The position numbers and the translations under genes were made by a program. Below, in pieces: positions 4,387-4,848 of a stretch of 5,052 nt of DNA (its first letter is position 1; each line of letters opens with the position of its first letter). The notes beneath the pieces were generated by a model that worked only from the letters and a program-made list of their open reading frames with translations, did no database searches and had not been told where the DNA came from. Origin of the DNA: Acidobacteriota bacterium (GTDB taxonomy: Bacteria; Acidobacteriota; Terriglobia; Terriglobales; Acidobacteriaceae); assembly GCA_021811745.1 (NCBI GenBank), contig JAJZNH010000650.1, forward strand, positions 1 through 5,052, in the 5' to 3' direction.

Positions 4387-4440
4387 TAGGGCTAGGGACT
4401 AGGGGCTAGGGACTAAGGACTAGGGACTAGGGACTAGGGA
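4387..4440 (+). repeat. Left heptamer array, seven CTAGGGA units
   Basis: Seven tandem 7-bp units fill 4392-4440, preceded by a partial unit (TAGGG, 4387-4391). Units 1, 3, 5, 6 and 7 are exact CTAGGGA. Unit 2 (4399-4405) reads CTAGGGG and unit 4 (4413-4419) reads CTAAGGA. The three exact units nearest the enclosed gene match the right array in inverted orientation. The array holds the last six codons and the stop of the four-helix-bundle gene. Confidence 0.95.
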
Positions 4441-4803
4441 CGGCCCCTTGGCCTGCAAAGACTTCATCATGGTGCGCAGCATTCGGCCCACTTCATTGCA
4501 GAGGCCCTCGGCAGAGCGCAAAAGCGGCTTTGATCCGAAACCCAAGGCGCTGGCAATTACAAGTTGAGTTTCGACTTCGGAAATGGAACCGCGTGCATGG
4601 CCAAGGAACTGCACATACTCTCCCTTGGTTGCGCGGCCATATCCTTCCGCAATGTTGCTGGCTAGCGATACCGCGGCTCTCCGAAGCTGATTTGTGAGAC
4701 CAAATCGCTCCGAATCCGGGAAACCTGCTGTTAGCTGGTAAATCGCCACTGTCAATTGAATCGCACGTTGCCAAACATCCAATTCTCGGAATGAAGCGCC
4801 CAT
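4420..4803 (-). CDS. Four-helix-bundle protein of the 23S rRNA intervening-sequence (S23/IVP) family
   Basis: The 127-residue protein shows the family signature throughout: FRELDVWQRAIQL (5-17), IYQLTAGFP (21-29), FGLTNQLRRAAVSLASNIAEG (34-54), YVQFLGHARGS (63-73) and EVETQLVIASALG (76-88). Relatives are encoded within intervening sequences of 23S rRNA genes in Leptospira and Coxiella, and the Avd accessory protein of diversity-generating retroelements has the same fold and binds nucleic acid. Here no rRNA, reverse transcriptase or template/variable repeat is present. About 14 Lys/Arg against 10 Asp/Glu give a basic protein, consistent with nucleic-acid binding. I chose ATG 4803-4801, which gives the usual short N-terminus; a TTG two codons upstream is nearer the AAAGGGG site and is possible. 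The last six residues (SLVPSP) and the stop are read from the left heptamer array, so the tail is not ancestral. It starts 22 nt after the lysS stop, suggesting co-transcription. Confidence 0.9.
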   Translation of the reverse strand: MGASFRELDVWQRAIQLTVAIYQLTAGFPDSERFGLTNQLRRAAVSLASNIAEGYGRATKGEYVQFLGHARGSISEVETQLVIASALGFGSKPLLRSAEGLCNEVGRMLRTMMKSLQAKGPSLVPSP

Positions 4804-4813
4804 TGCCAAGGAT

Positions 4814-4820
4814 CCCCTTT
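4814..4820 (-). promoter_or_regulatory. Likely ribosome binding site of the four-helix-bundle gene, beside the array
   Basis: On the minus strand AAAGGGG ends 10 nt before the ATG at 4803 and 4 nt before the TTG at 4809. It lies only 2 nt from the right heptamer array, so pairing of the two arrays in RNA would place this site at the base of the stem. Confidence 0.5.
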
Positions 4821-4822
4821 CG

Positions 4823-4848
4823 TCCCTAGTCCCTAGTCCCTAGTCCCT
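4823..4848 (-). repeat. Right heptamer array, three and two-thirds inverted units
   Basis: Three exact TCCCTAG units (4823-4829, 4830-4836, 4837-4843) plus TCCCT (4844-4848) on the plus strand, i.e. CTAGGGA units on the minus strand, opposite to the left array. The minus strand of this array encodes the last six residues (GLGTRD) and stop codon of lysS. Its four GGG runs separated by ACTA fit a G-quadruplex pattern in the lysS mRNA. Confidence 0.95.

Follow-up and report, generated by a model that had tools for sequence, protein, structure and literature searches.

The window analysed here (the whole 5,052-nt stretch of contig JAJZNH010000650.1, from an Acidobacteriota bacterium of the Acidobacteriaceae) carries at positions 4387-4848 a single S23 open reading frame (ORF) on the minus strand, which lies between lysS and ymdB and is enclosed by opposed arrays of the heptamer CTAGGGA. 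The features of this locus are as follows.

3564..4361, minus strand: ymdB, a YmdB-type metallophosphoesterase gene (TIGR00282) and the downstream neighbour of S23
4371..4375, plus strand: TGCTC, which may be the right target duplication (no more than suggestive; another TGCTC stands at 4364-4368)
4392..4440, plus strand: array on the 3' side of S23, built of five exact CTAGGGA units and further degenerate ones, in opposition to the 5' array
4417..4442, plus strand: one arm of a 26-bp perfect inverted repeat
4420..4803, minus strand: S23 (four-helix-bundle) ORF, with ATG at 4803, a frame also opened by TTG at 4809, and a TAG stop within an array unit
4446..4452, plus strand: inner CCTTGGC, complementary to GCCAAGG at 4805-4811 (read from the sequence; weak evidence at only 7 bp)
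4821..4846, minus strand: the other arm of the 26-bp perfect inverted repeat
4823..4843, minus strand: array on the 5' side of S23, built of three CTAGGGA units, in which the lysS stop codon falls
4826..5050, minus strand: 3' part of lysS (encoding the C-terminus), running off the window, with its stop codon in an array unit
4848..4852, plus strand: TGCTC (GAGCA on the minus strand), which may be the left target duplication (no more than suggestive, with no empty sister)

A first-pass annotation, made from the letters alone, had described a lone S23 gene, lower in G+C than its neighbours, between opposed CTAGGGA arrays, and this description was confirmed. Exact CTAGGGA occurs eight times in the window (five on the plus and three on the minus strand) versus 0.29 expected, with a largest count of 3 in 200 shuffles, and the S23 ORF, with a G+C fraction of 0.548, lies below ymdB (0.663) and the lysS part (0.635). 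The TAG stops of both lysS (4826-4828) and S23 (4420-4422) are supplied by CTAGGGA units. The perfect inverted repeat, put at 23 bp in the annotation, was undercounted: the longest is 26 bp, and a 27-nt pair pairs at 96%. The inner CCTTGGC/GCCAAGG pair that it listed is present, though at 7 bp it is weak evidence. The annotation had also likened the arrangement to the S23-encoding intervening sequences of 23S rRNA, placed here between protein genes. This likeness holds, as the predicted fold of the minus-strand transcript pairs the arrays around the ORF (z = -6.6 versus 100 shuffles), and no rRNA match was found in the window, so that the element sits between lysS and ymdB outside any rRNA gene. 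Two Rfam matches to the window were both under their gathering scores. A Pfam/NCBIfam profile scan recognised no transposase or recombinase in the element, and no reverse transcriptase was recognised among six window proteins scanned. Two further window ORFs (849-2561 and 2696-3580) had no Pfam or NCBIfam match.

The window ORF is a clear S23 family member, exceeding the curated cut-offs of both PF05635 (E = 1.6e-35; 122 bits, cut-off 33.8) and TIGR02436 (E = 1.4e-34; 118.6 bits, cut-off 24). Its matches to the bAvd and Avd profiles were weak (5.2e-6 and 7.2e-4) and both under the cut-offs; the Avd score of 19.8 bits, against a cut-off of 80, places it outside Avd. The sole solved relative found was PDB entry 2gsc (E = 4.6e-25), and the pI of the window protein is 9.6. 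Purifying selection acts on S23, with a median dN/dS of 0.069 across 11 separate pairs (dS being saturated in some of them). S23 genes were matched in 215 of 300 genomes of the host family, the Acidobacteriaceae.

Inverted arrays around S23 genes

A scan of named genomes by S23 protein alone confirmed 241 places, the best 80 of which were kept: 74 in Acidobacteria, four in Planctomycetes, one in a cyanobacterium and one in a Rhodanobacteraceae MAG, whose contig may be misbinned because it is similar to Granulicella DNA. Arrays stood at one or both ends of many of these 80 S23 loci, built of units such as GGGACTA, GGGAACA, GGGAATA, GGCAATA and GTAGCCA. Within 200 nt of S23, the density of period-7 arrays (2.82 per kb) was 21 times that beyond 800 nt (0.131 per kb), with 88 arrays near and 52 far in counts where the far sequence amounted to thirteen times more than the near. 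Arrays of period 8 (24 near, 10 far) and period 6 (8 near, 18 far) were also denser near S23, and none of period 5 or 9 were found near S23 at these 80 loci.

Since the far sequence is mostly coding, we used the other ORFs of the same loci as a stricter control. An inverted repeat scoring at least 16 surrounded 101 of 141 S23 genes versus five of 313 other ORFs (one of the five being itself an S23 gene), counts that are not fully independent as the S23 loci are partly related. The 141 genes are 148 distinct loci minus seven with short flanks; two loci (L184 and L185) had been left out earlier, having no central S23 match. In a wider set of 151 loci (161 minus ten dropped, among them the window, which has a short flank), the repeat was over threshold at 111 and not at 40, distributed as follows.

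Acidobacteriota and unlabelled others: repeat passes at 89 of 124 loci
Planctomycetota: 8 of 9
Cyanobacterial genomes: 2 of 3
Cyanobacterial plasmids: 9 of 11
Gemmatirosa (Gemmatimonadota): 1 of 1
Azospirillum: 1 of 1
Rhodanobacteraceae MAG: 1 of 2

The layout is therefore general, recurring in Planctomycetota, cyanobacteria, Gemmatimonadota and Azospirillum. The annotation had asked for copies at unrelated loci, and these are plentiful: S23 genes with inverted arrays lie at many loci, and 14 genomes picked for having S23 carry between 1 and 10 S23 copies each. The S23 gene of a Pseudanabaena galeata plasmid (L281, 1995-2354), which has long GCTAAAA/GCCAAAA arrays, is found inside a type I-D CRISPR locus, with cas6 on one side and cas4 on the other. 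On a Nostoc edaphicum plasmid (L272, 1989-2357), the S23 element has a ribonucleotide reductase subunit gene on either side, both of which run the opposite way.

Within an element the two ends match, and the units vary from element to element. Across 76 elements, the flank match summed over own pairs was 1446.5 versus 1069 for the largest of 10,000 permutations, though the own partner was the single best match in only 11 of the 76, because many elements share a unit. The best arm period among 111 elements was 7 in 85, 8 in 20, 9 in four, and 6 and 5 in one each. Loci picked by profile score had matched ends with units as unlike as GGAGTCA, GCTAGAA, GTTAAAA and GAAACTA; several others picked in this way had just one arrayed end or lacked arrays. 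Differing units coexist within one genome. Of the annotation's suggestion that such elements form a family with heptamer arrays as ends, the inverted arrays at many S23 loci thus stand, and CTAGGGA as the shared sequence does not: what is conserved is that the ends are self-complementary and repeat every 7 nt, or in some elements every 8 nt, and G-richness is not needed. We considered G-quadruplex formation as a common cause, given the G-tracts of the window units, but rejected it because units that lack them (GTTAAAA, GAAACTA and GCTAGAA) behave alike.

Filled and empty sites, and arrays without S23

A comparison of the lysS-ymdB junction in relatives, which the annotation had proposed, revealed both states. 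Among the best 30 of 280 ymdB matches (from 300 family genomes), the junction lacked S23 in 24 and contained it in four (one of them cut by a contig end), and two had no readable lysS. Some junctions without S23 had a lone array at the lysS stop (L116 and L126), and some had no array (L128 and L137). At the junction of genome G282 (L127), opposed GGGATCA-type arrays enclose unrelated sequence with no S23. Filled junctions had differing units at the same place (GGGACTA, GGCATTA, GGCAATA and octamers), and the repeat score was at least 16 in eight of eleven distinct filled junctions with both flanks, the others being L027 and L045 (both 14) and L010 (10.5); L033, cut by a contig end, is uninformative for this score. 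On an S23 tree of 152 rows (with few columns for that many rows), the lysS-ymdB label needs seven changes, at least five of them forced by supported branches, and S23 has therefore moved between loci or reached lysS-ymdB several times. The nearest row to the window S23 is L033, at the same locus, and the family lysS-ymdB junctions that were read included no near-identical empty sister of the window's own insertion; the window copy could thus be old. The search for an empty site that the annotation called for succeeded for plasmids of relatives, where filled and empty sites were found and one carries a 5-bp duplication, and yielded no close empty sister of the window itself. Together with the copies at many loci, this supports the annotation's proposal of a family of small mobile or RNA-processed elements.

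S23 genes were present in 30 plasmid records, and 10 of the 12 loci fetched first had a repeat scoring at least 16 (two of the ten being near-copies). Site 3 is filled in Trichormus and Scytonema plasmids and empty in Microchaete. A 423-bp element is bordered there on both sides by GTAAT, a 5-bp target duplication, with flanks identical at 299 of 300 and 293 of 300 positions, and removing the Trichormus element and one GTAAT yields exactly the empty 60-nt junction. Five further records look empty at this site by coverage alone. The Scytonema copy is 14 nt (two units) shorter, indicating that arrays gain or lose units, and a Nostoc plasmid holds a truncated copy of the element at site 3. At site 1, three Nostoc plasmids carry an S23 element with unit AGTCAGA in the gap between two genes; among the related plasmids whose junctions were read, five (L280 and L284-L287) are empty and two others (L288 and L289) hold another small gene instead. 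TTCTA stands at either side of this element, a near-perfect duplication apart from one differing base that adjoins the right-hand copy. One empty site-1 plasmid shares its strain with a filled one and has a distinct S23 element one gene away. Aulosira and Trichormus carry the site-1 element too, at unrelated loci, with similarity that stops at the arrays. No clean target duplication was found at sites 2, 4 and 5, so that over the five junctions compared a duplication was clear in one, near-perfect in one and not seen in three. A general test of target duplication over 111 elements was not significant (own mean 3.48 versus swapped mean 3.34, sd 0.08, maximum 3.60).

Arrays of this kind also occur without S23. 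A 182-nt insert splits the site-1 S23 gene of Nostoc N6. The insert lacks S23 but has opposed arrays whose unit is similar, and no target duplication can be seen around it. Sequence like this miniature was found in 43 plasmid records at 101 places; of these, 26 contain 80% or more of the query (the other matches may be arrays alone). Judged by this similarity, the S23-less miniature appears to belong to a dispersed family.

Array-rich genomes present a related picture. In 280 kb of genome G282, chosen for its arrays, there were 93 arrays, with neighbour pairs within 800 nt comprising 20 convergent, 20 same-strand and eight divergent pairs, and tblastn found no S23 in this stretch. AGGGA-type arrays were absent in 217 of the 300 genomes searched and present in 83, and bursts of 131-271 matches were seen in G010, G282, G228 and G294. 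S23 occurred in 68 of the 83 genomes with such arrays versus 147 of the 217 without (Fisher p = 0.015, a weak association only), leaving 15 array-bearing genomes with no S23 match; in these counts S23 absence means not being among the 215 matched genomes, and the AGGGA pattern misses other units and is the same when read backwards, which made its control uninformative. A 400-kb stretch of G247, which has one S23 in its genome, contained only five period-7 arrays, no more than of period 6. Searches of phage records, and of stretches of four viral contigs with an array, gave no S23 match. One viral contig (L083) carries two inverted heptamer array pairs with differing units (2460-2594 and 4927-5062) and no S23 by tblastn.

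Nature of the S23 elements

The window probably contains a copy of a small mobile element of foldback-like type, in which tandem arrays of a 7-nt unit specific to the element face each other across a single S23 (PF05635) gene. Collectively, our data point to a widespread, apparently unrecognised class of such elements carrying S23. MITEs and insertion sequences have inverted ends, target duplication and non-autonomous derivatives; S23 elements share the inverted ends and the non-autonomous derivatives, show a target duplication clearly at one site and near-perfectly at a second, and differ in having no transposase and in ends that are tandem arrays differing from element to element. Foldback transposons of eukaryotes (such as Tetris) likewise have inverted repeats built of tandem subunits, as S23 elements do, although the latter are bacterial, tiny and equipped with an S23 ORF. 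The S23 intervening sequences of 23S rRNA in Coxiella and Leptospira also have one S23 ORF inside a terminal inverted repeat and a length of about 0.43 kb. Unlike those, the elements described here lie between protein genes at many loci, have arrays at both ends and leave insertion scars in relatives. The G-rich heptamer repeats of Xanthomonas and Nostoc similarly form short tandem arrays, often as convergent pairs and near stop codons (PMC4692102), though many S23-element units are not G-rich.

In the probable foldback-like element described above, the paired arms (a hairpin in single-stranded DNA or RNA) would be what is recognised, the basic S23 protein would bind them, and cutting and joining would be performed by an enzyme supplied in trans, with arm complementarity kept by selection for pairing or by copying of one arm from the other. 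The S23-carrying intervening sequences of 23S rRNA would be members that landed in rRNA. A more tentative reading, to which we give slightly less than an even chance, is that S23 elements are transposase-less mobile DNA distributed across bacterial phyla, in which S23 recognises a self-complementary array pair and not a fixed end sequence, S23 intervening sequences are members in rRNA, and dispersed heptamer arrays of bacteria are, at least in part, non-autonomous derivatives. Recognition of a pair would leave the ends to drift freely while matching each other.

Several other explanations bear on the same observations. It is conceivable, though we consider it rather unlikely, that the element acts at the RNA level: RNase III would cut a hairpin in the transcript of neighbouring genes, in the manner of the 23S rRNA intervening sequences, with the arms kept for that purpose, insertion being harmless and spread rare and incidental. 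The predicted pairing of the arrays around the ORF in the window transcript (z = -6.6) fits this account, and the Coxiella intervening sequence, a substrate of RNase III in vitro, combines an S23 ORF with a terminal stem of 28 bp and with tandem heptamers (GACAGAT) located 5' of that ORF (PMC4990558). S23 is co-oriented with its upstream neighbour at 96 of 120 loci, as an RNA-level role would favour and as is compatible with read-through expression or oriented insertion, but with its downstream neighbour at only 62 of 120 (of 161 loci given, these 120 had both neighbours found by a mechanical ORF caller). Cutting of RNA would not by itself explain insertions with target duplication or the miniature family. 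The upstream co-orientation also suits retro-mobility, in which S23 would act like its distant relative Avd, the essential accessory protein of diversity-generating retroelements that PF05635 resembles (PMC10053308), by aiding a reverse transcriptase in trans to copy hairpin RNA into DNA. The window S23 does match the bAvd and Avd profiles, albeit weakly, yet the six window proteins scanned included no recognised reverse transcriptase, and we regard this route as improbable.

That S23 merely sits among host simple-sequence repeats of intergenic DNA is disfavoured and seems very improbable to us. Dispersed heptamer arrays are indeed known in Xanthomonas and Nostoc (PMC4692102), and array-rich genomes without detected S23, together with S23-less inverted pairs in G282 and at its lysS-ymdB junction, would accord with such passive neighbourhood. 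Against it stand the contrast between S23 genes and other ORFs of the same loci in bearing the repeat (101/141 versus 5/313), units matched within an element and variable between elements, even within one genome, and clean empty sites that end at the arrays.

Proposals that S23 intervening sequences are mobile date from the 1990s, and the matter was still unsettled in 2016 (PMC4990558). Dispersed heptamers have been described with no S23 in the main text (PMC4692102, PMC4679880, PMC2700814); in particular, Rehm 2015 (PMC4692102) reported 70 and 75 inverted heptamer-array pairs in two Xanthomonas genomes and generally no link of heptamers to mobile elements, and its main text contains 0 occurrences of S23. 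Among the matches listed in open-licence literature, the titles and opening parts of abstracts joined S23 to heptamer arrays in none but the Coxiella paper (PMC4990558), which is not proof of absence.

If the transposase-less mobile element reading is true, it would explain where at least some of the heptamer arrays that separate studies have described in several bacteria came from. Ends defined by their mutual match rather than by their sequence would be unusual for an element. S23 genes are common in the Acidobacteriaceae and have no known function, and the filled and empty sites, together with the rule of matched ends, make both their function and the mobility of S23 intervening sequences testable in named cyanobacteria.
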